A program made the translations under genes and the position numbers. This document shows, one piece after another, positions 522 to 59,528 of a DNA stretch of 64,000 nt. Source of the stretch: a virus. The stretch lies in IMG/VR virus record IMGVR_UViG_3300046323_000673, positions 1 through 64,000 of that record; one strand, written 5' to 3'. The notes under the pieces are model-generated. The model did no database searches. It saw only the letters and a list, made by a program, of their open reading frames with translations, and had not been told where the DNA came from. Each line of letters begins with the position of its first letter. Within the stretch, counting starts at the first letter, position 1.

Positions 522-551
522 AAATCCAATTGGATCGATCCAATTGGATTT
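522..551. repeat. 30-bp palindrome, copy 1 (perfect)
   Basis: Perfect inverted repeat: AAATCCAATTGGATC followed by its reverse complement. It lies between two tandem + genes. The right flank carries TAACAT at 559-564, 8 bases from the palindrome end, then GGGAG and the ATG at 576. Confidence 0.95.
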
Positions 552-4818: not shown

Positions 4819-6846
4819 ATGCCGCCGGTACAGTCACAAATCATCAAAGTCAAAGTTTCGCAGTTGGTCGAGTTTCGATCACGTCAGGTCTGCAAGAGCC
4901 TGGACGAACTTGCGAACAGCCTCAAGACACATGGGCAAATCGAGCCGCTCATTGTGCGCAAGGGTTCCAAGAAAAACACATACGAGATCGCCGCGGGTAC
5001 ACGTCGCAAGCGTGCAGCACTCATCGCAGAGATCGACACGCTAGACTGCGTTGTTCGCGACTTGACCGATCAACAGATGGTCGAAGTCTGCATCGCAGAG
5101 AACCGCGATCGCGACGATATTCACCCGCTTGAAGAAGCGGATGCGCTCTCCGAACTGCATGGACAGTTTGGACAAACGATCGAAGAGATGGCGGCCCGGT
5201 TTGGCCGGTCGAAGGAATACATCTGGGGGCGTTTGAAGATCGCGAAGATGCATGGCGATCTTCGTGCGTCGTTTCTTGCGAATCGGTTCGGCGTGAAGGG
5301 TGCGCTCGTGCTCGCGGGTGTTGCCGAAACGATGCAAGCGAAGGTGTGGGTTGAGCTTTCCAAACTCCCCGACACGATGCTTTCCGCGACCAAGATCAGC
5401 GGGTTTATACGGGACAAGTATTTACTTCGACTCGCATCCGCACCGTTCCCGATCGACAACAAAGATCTCGTTTCCGAAGCAGGCGAGTGTGGGCGTTGTC
5501 CGAAGCGAACCGGTGCGCAAGCAAGTCTCTTCCCTGACGACATCACAAGCGAGGATCGCTGCACGGACCTTGATTGTTTTACCGAGAAGAAGCAGGCGTT
5601 TGCCGACGTGCTCATTGAACGAGCGACAGCGAACGAGCTACGCGTTCTCGACAAGACGGAAGCAAGGGAGGTGTTCAAGTACGGCGAGACGATCGAGATC
5701 TTGAACCCCGAGTGTGCGTTCGTCGCGGTCGAGGGTAAGGTGCGGTTGGGCGAATCGAACTCGACATATCGCGAGCTGCTTTCATCGAATCCGCCCCCCG
5801 TCGTGATCGCGATTAACCCCGGCGGTGCGGGGCTCGAACTGTACGAAAAGGCAGCCGTCGCGAAGAGCATGCGTGCGTGCAAGGTGCCGTTCGTGAAGGA
5901 GTGGGAAAGCGTGTGCCTTCCCAAGGGCAAACCCACGCAATCGGGCGGTGATAAGCCCGATCGAAGTGTGACGAAGCAGGAACGTCAAGCGGCCGAACTT
6001 GCGATCACTGCGCTCCGGGAAGAAGCCGAATCGTTTGGTGAGATGAGCGCCGTGCAACGCAAGCGAACGTTCCAACTCATCGCGTTTGGAGCTGCGCGCA
6101 ACACGTGGTCGCAAGTGCAGAAAGCCTACATAAAGCGGCACAAGATCGACGACGGCAAGACGGGCGGCGATGCAAACGCACGCATGATCGCGATGCTTGA
6201 AGATCACATCAGCAAGCTAAGCTTTGAGCAATGCGTCGGGTTCATCTTCGAGATCGCGCTGCTGCGTGAAGTGCTTGGTGGCTCGGGTGAACCGAACTTT
6301 GAAAGCGAGATCTTCAAGCGAGGTTTGGCCGTATCGGGTCGCAAGTTGAGCGAGTTTCAGAAGCAGGTCACGAAGGCATCTAGCAAGGGTAAGGATGCAT
6401 CGGATGAAGAGCATGGGCCGACGACGAAGCGTTCAAGCCCTAAGCCCAGCAAGGCACCAAATCAGGGCAAAGCGAAGGCGAAGAAAGACAAGGATGATGA
6501 CGACGACGAACCACCCGTGAGCATGGGCGGTTGTTGCGCGATTTGTTCGTGTACGCGAGTCGAGCCGTGCGAGCGGATGATCGACGACAAGAAAACTGCG
6601 TGCGTGCGTGGGCAGGGTGAAGAGCTTTGCAGCTTGTGCGAAACGATCTTCGATACGGTGACTTCGATCGTCGAGGACAAGACAAACGTGTTCAGGTTTG
6701 AGGACGTGTTCGCGGGTGTGCGGATGCAGGATCAAGTGGAGGACACGGAAGGCGATCGTGATCTCGTTCGCGGGTGCCTTGATCGCATGGTCGAAGAAGA
6801 GATGATCGAACAGCAGGAAGACGACCGTTACCGCCGGGTCGAGTAG
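4819..6846 (+). CDS. large ParB/KorB-like DNA-binding protein, 675 aa
   Basis: The N-terminus is a ParB/Srx-type domain: IEPLIVRK at 41-48, the CTP-pocket-like AAGTRRKRAAL at 58-68, and ENRDRDDIHPLEEA at 94-107, which corresponds to ParB box II. A helix-turn-helix follows (IEEMAARFGRSKEYIWGRLK, 121-140). Then come a CxxC...CxxxxC cluster (about 223-255), a long middle, a Lys/Ser and poly-Asp linker, and a second Cys-rich cluster (about 569-615). The length is about twice that of ordinary ParB and no ParA was seen, so a KorB-like regulator or nucleoid organiser is as likely as a partition protein. It is the leading candidate to bind the 30-bp palindromes, by inference only. A palindrome follows 23 bases after its stop. 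Confidence 0.88.
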   Translation: MPPVQSQIIKVKVSQLVEFRSRQVCKSLDELANSLKTHGQIEPLIVRKGSKKNTYEIAAGTRRKRAALIAEIDTLDCVVRDLTDQQMVEVCIAENRDRDDIHPLEEADALSELHGQFGQTIEEMAARFGRSKEYIWGRLKIAKMHGDLRASFLANRFGVKGALVLAGVAETMQAKVWVELSKLPDTMLSATKISGFIRDKYLLRLASAPFPIDNKDLVSEAGECGRCPKRTGAQASLFPDDITSEDRCTDLDCFTEKKQAFADVLIERATANELRVLDKTEAREVFKYGETIEILNPECAFVAVEGKVRLGESNSTYRELLSSNPPPVVIAINPGGAGLELYEKAAVAKSMRACKVPFVKEWESVCLPKGKPTQSGGDKPDRSVTKQERQAAELAITALREEAESFGEMSAVQRKRTFQLIAFGAARNTWSQVQKAYIKRHKIDDGKTGGDANARMIAMLEDHISKLSFEQCVGFIFEIALLREVLGGSGEPNFESEIFKRGLAVSGRKLSEFQKQVTKASSKGKDASDEEHGPTTKRSSPKPSKAPNQGKAKAKKDKDDDDDEPPVSMGGCCAICSCTRVEPCERMIDDKKTACVRGQGEELCSLCETIFDTVTSIVEDKTNVFRFEDVFAGVRMQDQVEDTEGDRDLVRGCLDRMVEEEMIEQQEDDRYRRVE

Positions 6847-6869: not shown

Positions 6870-6899
6870 AAATCCAATTGGATCGATCCAATTGGATTT
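6870..6899. repeat. 30-bp palindrome, copy 2 (perfect)
   Basis: Perfect copy 23 bases after the ParB-like gene. The left flank, read on the minus strand, has AAACAT 8 bases out followed by AAGGG, an inverted version of the usual tail, although no gene starts there. A sigma70-like promoter lies to the right. Confidence 0.95.
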
Positions 6900-6939: not shown

Positions 6940-6968
6940 TTGACTAGCGGGGCATCATGCCCCATATT
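6940..6968 (+). promoter_or_regulatory. sigma70-like promoter with spacer palindrome
   Basis: TTGACT (6940-6945), a 17-base spacer, then CATATT (6963-6968). The AT-rich stretch upstream (GGAAAATAAAAAGATCA) resembles an UP element and recurs at 59427. The spacer contains the inverted repeat GGGGCAT-C-ATGCCCC, a possible operator. Homologous promoters occur at 58415 and 59451. Confidence 0.75.
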
Positions 6969-7448: not shown

Positions 7449-7757
7449 GTGTGGGGTATTCAATCACCGCCCGCATCACCACACACATACGCGGGATTCT
7501 GCGATGACAAATCAGCAGGTCCCGCGTCTTCGCATGCGGGTTCGTCCGTTGTTTCGACGGGTGTGTATACCCCGTCATCCGAGCATCCGATTGCGATGCA
7601 GCCCAACCCCAAGAGCAGCCCAACGATTACGATTCGCATTCCCGATGCTTATCGGTGTTTGCCGCGGATGACAAGCTCGTCAACCGAACCCCGCGATGCA
7701 CCCCGTGATCCCACGCTACGACCCGCCTGCACAACCGTGCAATCACACCCCTCGTAA
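7449..7757 (+). CDS. possible Ser/Pro-rich protein overlapping the methyltransferase gene
   Basis: This frame has codon use like its neighbours up to about 7630 and GGAGG lies 11 bases before the GTG at 7449. The product is rich in Ser, Pro and Thr with no known domain. Its last 109 bases run antisense into the methyltransferase gene, which is unusual. An opposite-strand frame also spans the stretch, so this call is weak. Confidence 0.3.
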   Translation: MWGIQSPPASPHTYAGFCDDKSAGPASSHAGSSVVSTGVYTPSSEHPIAMQPNPKSSPTITIRIPDAYRCLPRMTSSSTEPRDAPRDPTLRPACTTVQSHPS

Positions 7758-8491
7758 AGCATACGCATCACCGAATCATCGTTCGTCGAAAGCACGACAA
7801 TGCATCCTCGTTCGTCGAGGGTGCGGAACACGTCACGAAGTCGGCGATGCTCATCAATGCCGAACGTGCCTGAGTAGCCCGTAAACGTTCCCAGGTAGGG
7901 CGGGTCGAAGTAAACCACGTCCCTGGCTTGTGCACGCGCTAGGACCCCCTCAAACACCTCGCAATGCAGTTCGGCGGAACGCAGTGCAGTTGAGCAAGCA
8001 CGCATATTGTCGAGGTCGAACGTGATGGGTTTGCCGTCCCCAAACGGCGCATTGAATTCCACTTTCGAGTTGACCCGATGTAGCCCATTGAAACATGCGC
8101 GGTTCAGATAGAGAAACCAAGCCGCTCGTTCGATGTTGTTTTGCTGTTTCTGTGCATTGAACATACGTCGAACATTCTCGAATTCAGCGCGTGTATTCAT
8201 TGCCGGGTATGAAAGATGCACACATTTCAATCGGAATTCTTCGGACAATCCCATCTGCAAAACCTCGTACAGCCCAATCAAATCGGCGCATGTATCCGAT
8301 AGAACGGCGCGCGTAGGCAATAGGCGAAAGAAGAGCGCAGCACCCCCCGCGAACGGCTCGAACCATCGTCGCGATCGTACATCCGTGGGCAAGAGCGGAA
8401 CGAGCTGGTCGATCAAATTGGATTTGCCCCCGAGCCATTTCACGGCGGGCGTGGGATACGTTTCGGGAAGTGCGAGTGACAAGGTGCGCAT
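7649..8491 (-). CDS. dam: D12-class DNA adenine N6-methyltransferase (Dam-like), 280 aa
   Basis: Transfers a methyl group from S-adenosylmethionine to adenine in DNA. Seen: the D12 motif VKWLGGKSN at 17-25, FEPFAGGAAL at 44-53 (AdoMet site) and catalytic DPPY at 196-199. Length is typical for Dam. The start at 8491 follows CATGCT by 6 bases. GATC as target is the family's commonest specificity and is not proven here; every perfect palindrome contains two adjacent GATC sites. It is transcribed divergently from the next gene across palindrome copy 3. Confidence 0.9.
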   Translation of the reverse strand: MRTLSLALPETYPTPAVKWLGGKSNLIDQLVPLLPTDVRSRRWFEPFAGGAALFFRLLPTRAVLSDTCADLIGLYEVLQMGLSEEFRLKCVHLSYPAMNTRAEFENVRRMFNAQKQQNNIERAAWFLYLNRACFNGLHRVNSKVEFNAPFGDGKPITFDLDNMRACSTALRSAELHCEVFEGVLARAQARDVVYFDPPYLGTFTGYSGTFGIDEHRRLRDVFRTLDERGCIVVLSTNDDSVMRMLYEGCDCTVVQAGRSVGSRGASRGSVDELVIRGKHR

Positions 8492-8521: not shown

Positions 8522-8551
8522 AAATCCAATTGGATCGATCCAATTGGATTT
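8522..8551. repeat. 30-bp palindrome, copy 3 (perfect)
   Basis: Sits between the divergent methyltransferase gene and the gene at 8632. The right flank has TCATCGAGTAACGTAGG with TAACGT 8 bases from the palindrome. On the left strand CATGCT leads 6 bases later to the methyltransferase ATG. Confidence 0.95.
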
Positions 8552-13439: not shown

Positions 13440-13469
13440 AAATCCAATTGGATCGATCCAATTGGATTT
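13440..13469. repeat. 30-bp palindrome, copy 4 (perfect)
   Basis: Lies 2 bases after a stop codon, between tandem + genes. The right flank GTGGGCAACATAG gives CAACAT 7 bases out. The first 10 flanking bases match those beside copy 17 at 51454. Confidence 0.95.
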
Positions 13470-17339: not shown

Positions 17340-17369
17340 AAATCCAATTGGATCGATCCAATTGGATTT
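17340..17369. repeat. 30-bp palindrome, copy 5 (perfect)
   Basis: Lies 62 bases after the terminase stop. The left flank, read on the minus strand, is CGTCGAGTAACATGG with TAACAT 8 bases out, pointing into the terminase gene where no gene starts. Confidence 0.95.
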
Positions 17370-22058: not shown

Positions 22059-22438
22059 GCACGTTTCATTGCAAGAAGTTGTGCGAAAGTAGTTGTTGCT
22101 CATCATTCCGTATTGCGCTTATTGCGGATGGCAAGCGCAGCCAATTCGCAACTGCATCTTGCGATTGTTTCGAGTGTTCAGCGTGTGACCTGATTACGGA
22201 CCCCAAGAAGCTTGCCAAGCTGATGATGAAGGCGTTGCGTGCACGGGGTTTGGATGTCGAATCGTGGTCGCCCGAATATCCACCCTATGACCCGTCGATC
22301 GCGATACGGCTGAAGGATGGGTCGTTTCGTAGAATCATGTCGATGAAGCAGGCACGTACCGACCTTCTCATGGTGATGGCAACACCCGCCGACGAAACAA
22401 GCTTTGACGTCGTGAAGCAGATCATCGGCGCGGGATGA
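22055..22438 (+). CDS. Cys-rich hypothetical protein, 127 aa
   Basis: Not recognised. Eight cysteines in the first 45 residues (CKKLCESSCCSS, CDCFECSAC) suggest metal binding, followed by an alpha/beta region (KLAKLMMKALRARGLDVESW). The GTG start overlaps the previous stop (GTGA). Confidence 0.65.
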   Translation: MSTFHCKKLCESSCCSSFRIALIADGKRSQFATASCDCFECSACDLITDPKKLAKLMMKALRARGLDVESWSPEYPPYDPSIAIRLKDGSFRRIMSMKQARTDLLMVMATPADETSFDVVKQIIGAG

Positions 22439-22476
22439 TGTCGCGTGTGTTAGGGTACGCATCGGGTCAGTTGTAG

Positions 22477-22506
22477 AAATCCAATTGGATCGATCCAATT
22501 GGATTT
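22477..22506. repeat. 30-bp palindrome, copy 6 (perfect)
   Basis: Between tandem + genes. The right flank CGTCGAGTAACATAGAGG carries TAACAT 8 bases out; the next ATG is at 22531. Confidence 0.95.
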
Positions 22507-22530
22507 CGTCGAGTAACATAGAGGGTCGTC

Positions 22531-23091
22531 ATGTTAGCAAGCGTCGAACGAGTGATCATTTGGGATGGTACGGGACAAGAACGGGTTGGAACTTTGGTGT
22601 ATCCGAGTCCCGCGTTGTCGAGTGAGGAGGACAACGGGCGCATCATCACGCTTCCAACCGACGAACGATTGTTTGGCAAGAGCGCGCTTGGTGGGCTCTT
22701 CATTCGTCATTGGGGCGGCGGGGTGAAGTTCACGTCGATGCAGCCGCAACGACATTGCCCGATGGTCCTGCATGTTTCGTCGGACTTGTCGTTTCTGCAT
22801 TGGGTGCTGCGCATTGAAAAGGCCGATTCGAAAGCGGATGTACGCGGCACACTCGCGATCGTCGGAACGAACGATCCGGTGATTCAATCGGTCGGGGTAT
22901 TGTCCGCGATAGGGCGCACCGTTGACCTGTCGTCGCTCGGGGAAGCCGACAAGCAAGGTGGGTGGTTCATCAAGGGCAAATCGGTCCTACGCACAATGCA
23001 GGACGGGCTTTGCCCATTGATGGTGCAAGCGGTGAGTGACAACTTGCGCGTGAGGTGGACGGCGCTCACCCAAAGTCGAAGCGAGGAATGA
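22531..23091 (+). CDS. hypothetical protein, 186 aa
   Basis: Not recognised. An alpha/beta to all-beta sequence without motifs. It starts after palindrome, TAACAT box and AGAGGG. It begins the operon that leads to the portal gene, so a head or DNA-packaging role is possible. Confidence 0.65.
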   Translation: MLASVERVIIWDGTGQERVGTLVYPSPALSSEEDNGRIITLPTDERLFGKSALGGLFIRHWGGGVKFTSMQPQRHCPMVLHVSSDLSFLHWVLRIEKADSKADVRGTLAIVGTNDPVIQSVGVLSAIGRTVDLSSLGEADKQGGWFIKGKSVLRTMQDGLCPLMVQAVSDNLRVRWTALTQSRSEE

Positions 23092-23345
23092 ACGTGTTGA
23101 AGAAGCTTGGGGCGTTCATCTGGTTCGTGTACGATGTTGGGCGCCTCCTGTTCACTCGCGAATACAACGAACCTGATACGCCCCCGAACGACGACGATGA
23201 AGGCGAGCACGTACCAACAACACCCGTCGTGCACGTGTCGCCTGATGCATCGCGGATGATCTCCCGTCCCAAGCCGGTCATCGCACCGGCAATCGACGAA
23301 CCACTTGAAGGCAGCATCGAAGCTCGCCGACGCATGATCAACTGA
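23088..23345 (+). CDS. small protein with hydrophobic N-terminus, 85 aa
   Basis: Not recognised. Residues 6-21 (LGAFIWFVYDVGRLLF region) are hydrophobic and could anchor it in the membrane; the rest is acidic and Pro-rich. Starts overlap both neighbours (ATGA upstream, TGATG downstream). Confidence 0.6.
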   Translation: MNVLKKLGAFIWFVYDVGRLLFTREYNEPDTPPNDDDEGEHVPTTPVVHVSPDASRMISRPKPVIAPAIDEPLEGSIEARRRMIN

Positions 23346-27118: not shown

Positions 27119-27148
27119 AAATCCAATTGGATCGATCCAATTGGATTT
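27119..27148. repeat. 30-bp palindrome, copy 7 (perfect)
   Basis: Between tandem + genes. The right flank CATCGAGTAACGAAGGG holds TAACGA 8 bases out; the ATG at 27174 follows. The same tail appears inverted beside copy 11. Confidence 0.95.
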
Positions 27149-29570: not shown

Positions 29571-29600
29571 AAATCCAATTGGATCGATCCAATTGGATTT
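29571..29600. repeat. 30-bp palindrome, copy 8 (perfect)
   Basis: Lies 15 bases after the scaffold stop. A sigma70-like promoter for the capsid gene follows. No clear TAACAT-type box at 8 bases. Confidence 0.95.
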
Positions 29601-32266: not shown

Positions 32267-32296
32267 AAATCCAATTGGATCGATCCAATTGGATTT
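32267..32296. repeat. 30-bp palindrome, copy 9 (perfect, convergent)
   Basis: The only copy between the 3' ends of two converging genes (32254 on + and 32308 on -). Neither flank has a convincing -10 box, so here a terminator-like or structural role is more plausible. Confidence 0.95.
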
Positions 32297-34105: not shown

Positions 34106-34330
34106 CTAGATCTTCTTGGCGAACCCGTATCGTTTGCCACGCTTTTCACCTTCCGCGTCGATTGCACCAAGCGCGGTGAGGTACGCAATCGCGGCGCTCC
34201 ATTCGGATGACGAGCATGAAACGTGAACAGCGATTTCGCCCTTGGTGAGTTTCTTGTCTTTCGACTTTTCGAGTGTGTTGACGATCTGTTGAGCGATTCG
34301 TTGGGTATTCGATGAGACTTCGGTAGCCAT
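34106..34330 (-). CDS. small winged-helix-like protein, 74 aa
   Basis: Helix-turn-helix or winged-helix pattern: LTKGEIAVHVSCSSSEWSAA, then IAYLTALGAIDAEGEKRGKRYGF. This suggests DNA binding, possibly as a regulator. AAAGGAG precedes its ATG. Middle gene of the minus operon. Confidence 0.65.
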   Translation of the reverse strand: MATEVSSNTQRIAQQIVNTLEKSKDKKLTKGEIAVHVSCSSSEWSAAIAYLTALGAIDAEGEKRGKRYGFAKKI

Positions 34331-34580: not shown

Positions 34581-34610
34581 AAATCCAATTGGATCGATCC
34601 AATTGGATTT
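34581..34610. repeat. 30-bp palindrome, copy 10 (perfect, divergent)
   Basis: Between the minus operon at 34564 and the + gene at 34632. Left: CATGAT then 6 bases then ATG. Right: GCTACC 7 bases out then 9 bases to the ATG. Confidence 0.95.
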
Positions 34611-38081: not shown

Positions 38082-38111
38082 AAATCCAATTGGATCGATC
38101 CAATTGGATTT
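38082..38111. repeat. 30-bp palindrome, copy 11 (perfect)
   Basis: Between tandem + genes. The left flank, read on minus, is CGTCGAGTAACGTAGGGATT, the same tail as on the right of copy 7, here inverted and pointing at no gene. Confidence 0.95.
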
Positions 38112-41961: not shown

Positions 41962-41991
41962 AAATCCAATTGGATCGATCCAATTGGATTT
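41962..41991. repeat. 30-bp palindrome, copy 12 (perfect, divergent)
   Basis: Between the minus operon (41945) and the + gene at 42066. Left side has CATGAT then 7 bases then ATG. The right leader is longer and contains TACACT near 42013. Confidence 0.95.
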
Positions 41992-43089: not shown

Positions 43090-43119
43090 AAATCCAATTG
43101 GATCAACCCAATTGGATCT
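43090..43119. repeat. 30-bp palindrome, copy 13 (variant, 3 mismatches, divergent)
   Basis: The right half is altered (GATCAACCC instead of GATCGATCC, and a final TCT for TTT), so one of the two GATC sites is lost. Left: CATGAT then ATG. Right: GATACC, 8 bases, then GTG at 43139. Confidence 0.9.
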
Positions 43120-44604: not shown

Positions 44605-44634
44605 AAATCCAATTGGATCGATCTAATTGGATTT
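44605..44634. repeat. 30-bp palindrome, copy 14 (variant, 1 mismatch, divergent)
   Basis: One C to T change in the right half; both GATC sites remain. Right: TAACAT (44642-44647), 6 bases, ATG at 44654. Left: CATGAA, 7 bases, ATG at 44583. Confidence 0.95.
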
Positions 44635-46648: not shown

Positions 46649-46678
46649 AAATCCAATCGGATCGATCCAATTGGATTT
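46649..46678. repeat. 30-bp palindrome, copy 15 (variant, 1 mismatch, divergent)
   Basis: One T to C change in the left half; both GATC sites are kept. Right: GATACA, 8 bases, ATG at 46699. Left: CATGAA 9 bases out, then a longer leader to the minus gene. Confidence 0.95.
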
Positions 46679-48565: not shown

Positions 48566-48595
48566 AAATCCAATTGGATCGATCCAATTGGATTT
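48566..48595. repeat. 30-bp palindrome, copy 16 (perfect, divergent)
   Basis: Between the minus gene at 48532 and the + gene at 48653. Left: CATGAA 9 bases out. Right: no clear box at 8 bases, but TTGACC lies at 48617. Confidence 0.95.
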
Positions 48596-51453: not shown

Positions 51454-51483
51454 AAATCCAATTGGATCGATCCAATTGGATTT
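51454..51483. repeat. 30-bp palindrome, copy 17 (perfect)
   Basis: Lies 11 bases after the baseplate J stop and 2 bases from the 3' end of the tRNA-like RNA on the other strand. Confidence 0.95.
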
Positions 51484-53721: not shown

Positions 53722-54819
53722 ATGTCGAACGTTTTGTCCGACGAGAAGCGTCTTGCCGTTCTTGCGGCATTGGTGGACGGCAATTCTGAGCGTGCGGTCG
53801 AACGCATGACCGACGTTGATCGGAAGACGGTTCGTCGACTTGCGATTGCGTTGGGTGAAGGTGCGGTCAACCTGCACAATCGTCTCGCGCGTGGGTTGTC
53901 GTGCTCTCTTGTCCAAGTCGATGAGATTTGGTCGTACGTGCAGAAGAAGGAAGCTCGCGTCACTGAGAAGGACGGCCCCGACGTAGGAGAGGCGTACACG
54001 TTCGTCGCGTTGGATTCGTCATCGCGGTTTGTCATTGGTTGGCACGTGGGCAAGCGTGACCAAGCGTCGACAGACACCTTCATGCAGGACGTGCGTGCGC
54101 GGCTCGTTGTTATGCCCGCCATGACGTCGGACGGGTTCGCGCCGTATATCAGTGCGATCGGTGCGTCGTTCGGTCCTGGCATCGATTACGCGCAAACGAT
54201 CAAGAATTACGGAAGCAAGGGACGTCGCGAGGGCGGATCGGATCACCGCTACGAGCCCCCTCGTGACCCGTTCATCACGAAGAAAAGCATCTTCGGCGCT
54301 CCGAACCTTGAACGCGCGAGCACGGCCTACGTAGAGCGAAACAACGGGACAATGCGCCATCACATTGGACGCATGCGCCGCTTGTGTTTGGCATTTTCCA
54401 AGAAACTTCCGAACCATCGCGCGGCAATTGCGTTGGCGTACGTGCACTACAACCTTTGCCACGTGGTCTCTACGTTGCGCGTAACGCCCGCGATGGCGGC
54501 GCACGTGACGGATCATGTTTGGGATCTTCGGGAGTTACTTGCGGCGTTGCTTGACGCTGCTCCTTGTGAAGCACCGGAGAAGCAGGTCCTTGCGTCTCGC
54601 GTGCCCGAAGTGACGCACCGCGAGCTTCCGAATAATCGCGGCTTTCTTCGGGTCGTGGACGGCGGGAAAGCCAAACCTGTAGCGCCTACGCCGATCGCCC
54701 CTGTACCCGTTCCAATGGTTGCGACGGTAGCCGAACCCGAAATACCACGGGGGACGCAGCTCGATCTTTTTGCCTGGAAAACACGTGAAAGACAGCTTTC
54801 GCTGTTTCCCGATGCGTAA
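53722..54819 (+). CDS. IS1-like DDE transposase, 365 aa
   Basis: Catalyses movement of the element. A helix-turn-helix (RAVERMTDVDRKTVRRLAI, about 24-42) precedes the catalytic core: D67 in VQVDEIWSYV, D137 in MTSDGFAPY, E205 in YVERNNGT, followed by the basic MRHHIGRMRR. The ATG at 53722 has a GAGGGGACC ribosome site. Family is clear; a single continuous frame rather than an InsA/InsB frameshift pair is a variant seen in many IS1-like elements. Confidence 0.9.
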   Translation: MSNVLSDEKRLAVLAALVDGNSERAVERMTDVDRKTVRRLAIALGEGAVNLHNRLARGLSCSLVQVDEIWSYVQKKEARVTEKDGPDVGEAYTFVALDSSSRFVIGWHVGKRDQASTDTFMQDVRARLVVMPAMTSDGFAPYISAIGASFGPGIDYAQTIKNYGSKGRREGGSDHRYEPPRDPFITKKSIFGAPNLERASTAYVERNNGTMRHHIGRMRRLCLAFSKKLPNHRAAIALAYVHYNLCHVVSTLRVTPAMAAHVTDHVWDLRELLAALLDAAPCEAPEKQVLASRVPEVTHRELPNNRGFLRVVDGGKAKPVAPTPIAPVPVPMVATVAEPEIPRGTQLDLFAWKTRERQLSLFPDA

Positions 54820-58346: not shown

Positions 58347-58376
58347 AAATCCAATTGGATCGATCCAATTGGATTT
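58347..58376. repeat. 30-bp palindrome, copy 18 (perfect, divergent)
   Basis: Between the MazG gene (minus) and the + gene at 58493. Left: CATGAA 8 bases out. Right: a near-consensus sigma70 promoter begins 39 bases later. Confidence 0.95.
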
Positions 58377-58414
58377 TGTCGGCAGTAGTACGAAAAGAAA
58401 ACAAACAACATCAC

Positions 58415-58443
58415 TTGACACCCTAGGCATCATGCCCTATATA
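58415..58443 (+). promoter_or_regulatory. near-consensus sigma70 promoter
   Basis: TTGACA (58415-58420), a 17-base spacer holding AGGCATCATGCC, then TATATA (58438-58443). The transcript leader begins near 58450 with GTTGTCGACGGCG, also present behind 59451. This is the best promoter of the window. Confidence 0.85.
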
Positions 58444-58492
58444 TGGGTTGTCGACGGCGCGATGAGTGCTGCAACAAGGGAGCTGGACGAAG

Positions 58493-59373: not shown

Positions 59374-59403
59374 AAATCCAATTGGATCGATCCAATTGGA
59401 TTT
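59374..59403. repeat. 30-bp palindrome, copy 19 (perfect)
   Basis: The left flank, read on minus, is CATCGGGTAACATAGC with TAACAT 8 bases out and no known gene behind it. On the right an AT-rich UP-like stretch leads to the promoter at 59451. Confidence 0.95.
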
Positions 59404-59450
59404 GCATTTTGGTTGTTGAACGTACCGAAAATAAAAAGATCAAGATCGTC

Positions 59451-59479
59451 TTGACTACCTAGACAACATGCCCTATATA
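59451..59479 (+). promoter_or_regulatory. near-consensus sigma70 promoter
   Basis: TTGACT (59451-59456), 17 bases, TATATA (59474-59479). The upstream GAAAATAAAAAGATCAAGATC and the leader GTTGTCGACGGCG repeat those at 6940 and 58415. Confidence 0.85.
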
Positions 59480-59528
59480 TGGGTTGTCGACGGCGTGATG
59501 GGTGCCGAGACAAGGGAGCAAGACGCGC

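Follow-up and report, generated by a model that had tools for sequence, protein, structure and literature searches.

An orphan ParB-family protein as the best candidate reader of a dispersed 30-bp palindrome in a phage genome

An orphan ParB-family gene in a palindrome-rich phage

The stretch of phage DNA analyzed here (64 kb, hereafter designated the window) is part of an 83,860-bp contig and contains the parB gene encoding a ParB-family protein, P0001, a dam gene placed between parB and the palindrome at 8522, and 19 copies of a 30-bp palindrome (Table 1). Gene borders were taken from a codon-usage predictor built for the analysis, rather than from curated annotation.

Table 1 Features of the window
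Feature	Position	Strand	Remarks
Orphan ParB-family protein P0001	4819..6846	+	675 aa; ORF, Pfam/TIGR profiles and structure matches
ParB N-terminal (CTPase-fold) domain of P0001, residues 19–95	4873..5103	+	GTRR replaces GERR
HTH_ParB DNA-binding domain of P0001, residues 100–176	5116..5346	+	Putative recognition helix GRSKEYIWGRL
Cys cluster 1 of P0001 (C224–C253)	5488..5577	+	Common to orphan ParBs of Myxococcus plasmids and VarioGold/Aval phages
Cys cluster 2 of P0001 (C572–C607)	6532..6639	+	Absent from aligned relatives
Dam-family adenine methyltransferase	7649..8491	-	Start 8491 inferred; closest to M.DpnII and E. coli Dam
Palindrome	522..551		Exact; -10-like TAACAT 7 nt downstream; ATG 25 nt downstream
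Palindrome	6870..6899		Exact; 23 nt past parB stop; dyad +4 bp per side
Palindrome	8522..8551		Exact; between dam gene (-) and gene 8608 (+)
Palindrome	13440..13469		Exact; 2 nt past stop codon; dyad +3 bp
Palindrome	17340..17369		Exact; follows terminase gene; matching K1 gap holds the K1 palindrome
Palindrome	22477..22506		Exact; TAACAT downstream; K1 shares gap
Palindrome	27119..27148		Exact; K1 shares gap
Palindrome	29571..29600		Exact; upstream of major capsid gene; K1 shares gap
Palindrome	32267..32296		Exact; dyad +4 bp; K1 shares gap
Palindrome	34581..34610		Exact; TACCTT 7 nt ahead of ATG
Palindrome	38082..38111		Exact; dyad +3 bp
Palindrome	41962..41991		Exact
Palindrome	43090..43119		3 mismatches; TGATACCCT, then GTG start after 6 nt
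Palindrome	44605..44634		1 mismatch; TAACAT, then ATG after 6 nt
Palindrome	46649..46678		1 mismatch
Palindrome	48566..48595		Exact
Palindrome	51454..51483		Exact; dyad +3 bp
Palindrome	58347..58376		Exact; upstream of TTGACA-type promoter; dyad +3 bp
Palindrome	59374..59403		Exact; upstream of TTGACT-type promoter

A preliminary description of this DNA had assigned ParB-box-like motifs, an HTH and two Cys clusters to the 675-residue protein, and profile searches bore this out: ParB_N (Pfam E = 6.9e-17, 61.7 bits against a curated cut-off of 26.3), HTH_ParB (E = 2.6e-7, 31.2 bits against 22.6) and the ParB/Spo0J partition protein family TIGR00180 (107 bits against 58) were all matched above their cut-offs. 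The box motifs are GQIEPLIVR, GTRRKRA and ENRDRDDIHPLEEA, and the closest solved structures, over the N-terminal and HTH domains, are crystal structures of ParB, Spo0J and Noc. Cys cluster 1 reads CGRCPKRTG...CTDLDC, and the protein carries a long extra C-terminal region. AlphaFold run without an alignment gave a mean pLDDT of 41, and the model was left unused. The absence of a nearby ParA, also stated in that description, extends to the whole contig, in which no match exceeded the AAA_31 cut-off; the sole match was sub-threshold, spanned 35 aa and fell within a DnaB-like helicase.

Membership in the KorB family, as the earlier label of a KorB-like protein might imply, could not be upheld, since Pfam at E ≤ 1 found ParB_N and HTH_ParB alone and no KorB-specific domain in P0001, and neither the OB operator nor KorA accompanies it. 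Assignments as a PRTRC ParB (TIGR03734, 102.6 bits against a cut-off of 278.6) and as Noc (TIGR04285, 100.6 bits against 315) were likewise rejected. P0001 is thus an orphan ParB, KorB-like in its proposed logic and not a KorB. It resembles the orphan ParBs of mobile elements surveyed recently (PNAS 2025, PMC12704722) in its ParB-CTPase fold with HTH, its phage-borne gene, the missing ParA and the long extra C-terminal region, and differs from them in the second Cys cluster, absent in aligned relatives, and in the 23-copy palindrome family.

Of the nucleotide-pocket motifs GERR and ENxxR, the canonical GERR is replaced by GTRR (E78 to T), whereas EN and RR are retained. Because the E78Q variant of Bacillus subtilis ParB closes its clamp without hydrolysis (Antar 2021, PMC8494293), the loss of the GERR glutamate suggests, by analogy, that CTP hydrolysis by P0001 is slow or absent.

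Number and placement of the palindromes

The palindrome, AAATCCAATTGGATCGATCCAATTGGATTT, is the sole repeated palindrome of the phage genome and occurs 23 times in the contig, with 20 of the 23 copies exact across the inner 26 bp; the window count refers to copies with at most 3 mismatches, for which shuffled sequences gave 0. All copies but one (22/23) are wholly intergenic, though such positions make up 19% of the genome (P = 2e-15), and 12 of the 23 lie within 25 nt past a gene end, compared with 2.3 expected and a maximum of 8 in 5000 trials. They are spaced along the contig more regularly than expected by chance (CV 0.51). The stretch immediately ahead of parB has no copy, although a repressor controlling its own gene would be expected to have one there.

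ParB sites usually measure 13–16 bp, in comparison with the 30 bp of the phage palindrome. Canonical parS (TGTTTCACGTGAAACA) had no match in the window at up to 3 mismatches and the KorB operator OB (TTTAGCSGCTAAA) none at up to 2, while the parS-like motif of the P0001 relatives described below gave a single match in the window, which is at chance level. The exact 30-bp palindrome was not found in IMG/VR beyond its own record.

Fixed core and switched arms in two kin lineages

Searches with the terminase and the palindrome cores identified two kin lineages, designated K1 (terminase 74% identical to that of the window phage) and K2 (capsid 67% and portal 44% identical). Both are represented by fragments only, none of which extends to the parB region. 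P0001 itself found no match among viral contigs or in these kin records, which stop short of that region. Terminase and capsid profiles searched against bacterial genomes for a host or prophage also found no match.

Each lineage has its own palindrome, CCTTTC-GGATCGATCC-GAAAGG in K1 and GACGTC-GGATCGATCC-GACGTC in K2, so that the core GGATCGATCC is constant across the window phage, K1 and K2 and the arms differ by lineage. The arms are changed in all or nearly all K1 and K2 copies and are uniform within a lineage except for one mismatched K1 copy. Moreover, five K1 palindromes occupy gene gaps that also hold palindromes of the window (Table 1), with fewer shared gaps in K2. Since the core is fixed and the arms have been switched genome-wide in each lineage, comparison of the sequences suggests that site and reader changed together, the specificity of the reader having shifted between lineages. 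The three lineages would then constitute a natural experiment on a regulator changing with all of its sites. One K2 contig (G001) encodes at 22386–23096 an N6_N4-class DNA methyltransferase, whose gene ends 22 nt ahead of a palindrome.

Dispersed palindromes of P0001 relatives

The ParB closest to P0001 is borne by the Myxococcus plasmid NZ_CP123279, where it adjoins a ParA gene and is hence no orphan. The first 50 kb of this plasmid contain 12 sites of the CGCAGACGTCTGCG type (at most 2 mismatches), 11 of which are intergenic, and the full 64 kb contain 12 exact GCASACGTSTGC sites. A motif derived from the VarioGold and Aval phages, GTGCASACGTSTGCAC, was afterwards detected in a Comamonas phage-plasmid as well; at no more than 1 mismatch, it occurs five times in each of the three genomes, all of which encode orphan ParBs, one copy lying inside parB in each, and a reversed-pattern control gave 0. 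The one VarioGold publication consulted does not mention palindromes. The parS-like core GCASACGTSTGC is therefore dispersed in four genomes with P0001 relatives, namely, three phages and one Myxococcus plasmid, whose ParBs are homologous to P0001 and share with it Cys cluster 1 and the possession of dispersed palindromes.

The ParBs of all four genomes have in common the recognition helix [KM]SR[AS]YV. The exact core GCASACGTSTGC was found in none of 11 other records, nine of which carry ParB-like genes; wherever the HTH of their ParBs was compared, the helix was a different one. No ParB is known from the remaining two of the 11, the Kromp and phiKX1 phages. Thus, the site sequence appears to follow the recognition helix, a link based on four genomes, three of which are related phages. 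P0001 differs from the four relatives in its helix, RSKEYIW, and the phage 30-mer is unlike their ACGT-centered sites. The orphan ParBs of pYRE, Schnabeltier and a 50-kb stretch of an Acidisarcina plasmid are accompanied by no comparable dispersed palindrome; the subfamily of P0001 tends, on these comparisons, to travel with dispersed palindromes, although not universally. Apparent 13- and 8-copy palindromes of two Myxococcus plasmids were discarded as portions of longer repeats. As orphan ParBs are frequent on mobile elements and their DNA sites are mostly unassigned, the pairing of GCASACGTSTGC with the helix [KM]SR[AS]YV provides a concrete site prediction for the whole ParB subfamily.

Promoter-like and extended copies

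At many palindromes, a -10-like hexamer lies about 7 nt downstream and a start codon 6–12 nt beyond the hexamer. The element TAnnnT was found 4–8 nt ahead of the start in 3 of 12 palindrome-proximal genes versus 2 of 63 others in this phage and in 4/4 versus 8/43 in K2, which gave a pooled 7/16 versus 10/106 (P = 0.0016), the copy classes and cut-offs for these and for the dyad statistics below having been set after the data were viewed. From this geometry, the palindrome at a subset of copies is located near the -35 region of predicted leaderless or near-leaderless promoters; the spacing between palindrome and -10 element is variable in K2. Downstream of the palindrome ahead of the major capsid gene lies a TTGACG-N17-TAGGGT promoter, which is conserved in K1. 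Three similar strong promoters of the TTGACA/T-N17-TATAT type (6940–6967, 58414–58460 and 59450–59496) are each situated about 40–50 bp downstream of a palindrome and are probably early promoters.

At some copies, the dyad is lengthened by differing yet matching bases, more often than in permutations (P = 0.0015 in the own genome and 0.002 in K2), and all of these extended copies are more than 40 nt away from the next start (P = 0.02), the classes again being those set post hoc. A K1 contig (L008, 5738–5781) has a perfect dyad of 44 bp, which measures 24 bp at the matching place in the sister contig L007.

Candidate readers and roles of the palindromes

Because a -10 box and a leaderless or near-leaderless start follow shortly after many copies, an operator is the likeliest role of the palindrome, and we give nearly an even chance to the reading in which a dimeric DNA-binding protein, most likely P0001, uses the copies as operators or clamp-loading sites. 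Since P0001 has the ParB_N and HTH domains that such a reader requires, the genome has no repeated palindrome other than the 30-mer and the sites of the relatives track the recognition helix, P0001 is the best candidate reader, and the 30-mer, by elimination and analogy, its best candidate site; that P0001 in fact reads it we put at about even odds. The palindromes may instead be operators of another protein, either an unrecognized phage regulator or a transcription factor of the host, the phage having borrowed its site, with ParB acting elsewhere. This reading, which we regard as somewhat unlikely, is favored by the lack of annotation for most phage genes, by the existence of orphan ParBs without dispersed palindromes and by the lineage-specific arms, which are expected with differing hosts or regulators. 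Its candidates are a small winged-helix-like ORF at 34106–34330 and an IS1-transposase-like protein at 53722–54819, whose IS1 match covers 53722–54816, but the HTH_27 and HTH_11 matches of the former, at 34109–34330, are weak and below the curated cut-offs, and P0001 is the only strong dimeric regulator found.

A post-transcriptional role, in which the palindromes are RNA hairpins between operons serving as terminators, as protection of mRNA 3'-ends or as processing sites, is unlikely for the family as a whole. The excess of copies just past gene ends, the folding energy (-15.4 kcal/mol for the 30-mer and -22 to -27 for extended copies), the lengthening of dyads by different matching bases and their distance from the next start all agree with hairpins, and for the subset of lengthened dyads behind stop codons such a role is possible. 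However, neither loop nor stem varies within a genome, the substitutions in mismatched copies disrupt base pairs with no compensating change, it is the loop that is conserved across lineages, roughly half the copies are placed like promoter elements, and an Rfam search found no match. Intrinsic terminators were rejected, as the stems are A+T-rich and followed by merely 3–4 T (U) instead of being G+C-rich with a U tract. Very improbable, in our estimation, is a GATC-methylation switch, in which the phage Dam would gate the reader, also at the dam promoter, by modifying both of the directly adjoining GATCs in the core. The methyltransferase scores far above the cut-off of TIGR00571 (223 bits against 115), its gene adjoins parB and has a palindrome 30 nt ahead of the inferred start, and the core retained in three lineages is G-GATC-GATC-C; judged from the sequence, methylation of both GATCs by this enzyme is possible, as is self-control of dam through the palindrome at 8522. 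Nevertheless, GATC is common elsewhere (638 sites in the genome, 0.86 of expectation outside the core), no Dam was seen in the kin fragments, the K2 methyltransferase belongs to another family, and the GATC content was noticed post hoc. A combined scheme, in which a P0001 clamp reads about 23 promoter-linked palindromes as a methylation-gated regulon, with arms co-switching and the doubled GATC core fixed as the Dam target, appears quite improbable.

Proposed action of P0001 at the palindromes

ParB clamps load at palindromes. If P0001 is the reader, it would bind a palindrome through its HTH domain and close there into a CTP-bound clamp, which may stay at the palindrome or slide into the neighboring promoter and would presumably set the expression of the downstream gene blocks in one direction or the other. 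The scheme would parallel the use of scattered sites by KorB, Noc and VirB. A regulatory role fits in that copies are located at gene borders and at the putative leaderless or near-leaderless promoters. Hence, of the preliminary proposal that this protein reads the palindromes and works as a KorB-like global regulator, P0001 stands as the best candidate on the strength of the sole repeated palindrome and the sites of four relatives, and the placement suits regulation, whereas the KorB membership falls away. If P0001 does read the palindromes, a sliding clamp would serve this phage to regulate its genes genome-wide.

The logic proposed here is known from KorB of plasmid RK2, a ParB-type CTP clamp regulating via dispersed palindromic operators (PMC11790492), from which P0001 differs in lacking the KorB domain, the OB site and KorA and in the 30-bp length of its candidate site. 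The closest phage precedent is the Cluster O mycobacteriophage Corndog, which has 34 copies of a 17-bp palindrome of unknown function together with a ParB-like protein and no ParA (PMC4351075); one third of the Corndog sites are within genes and most are away from promoters, in contrast to the nearly exclusively intergenic and partly promoter-linked copies found here. The stoperators of Cluster A mycobacteriophages, as cited in that source (PMC4351075), likewise give a phage regulator numerous sites between genes, but are asymmetric and oriented, unlike the perfect dyads of this phage. The VarioGold, Aval, Comamonas and NZ_CP123279 systems differ from P0001 in their GCASACGTSTGC-centered sites and recognition helix, and the Myxococcus ParB also in its neighboring ParA gene.

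Other genes of the contig

The IS1-transposase-like protein mentioned above consists of 365 residues, has no visible insertion-element ends and is possibly a domesticated DNA-binding protein. Outside the window, this palindrome-rich phage encodes a metallophosphoesterase (contig positions 78357–79112) matching the SbcD-like family of palindrome-nuclease subunits, followed by a gene for an 819-aa protein (79144–81603).
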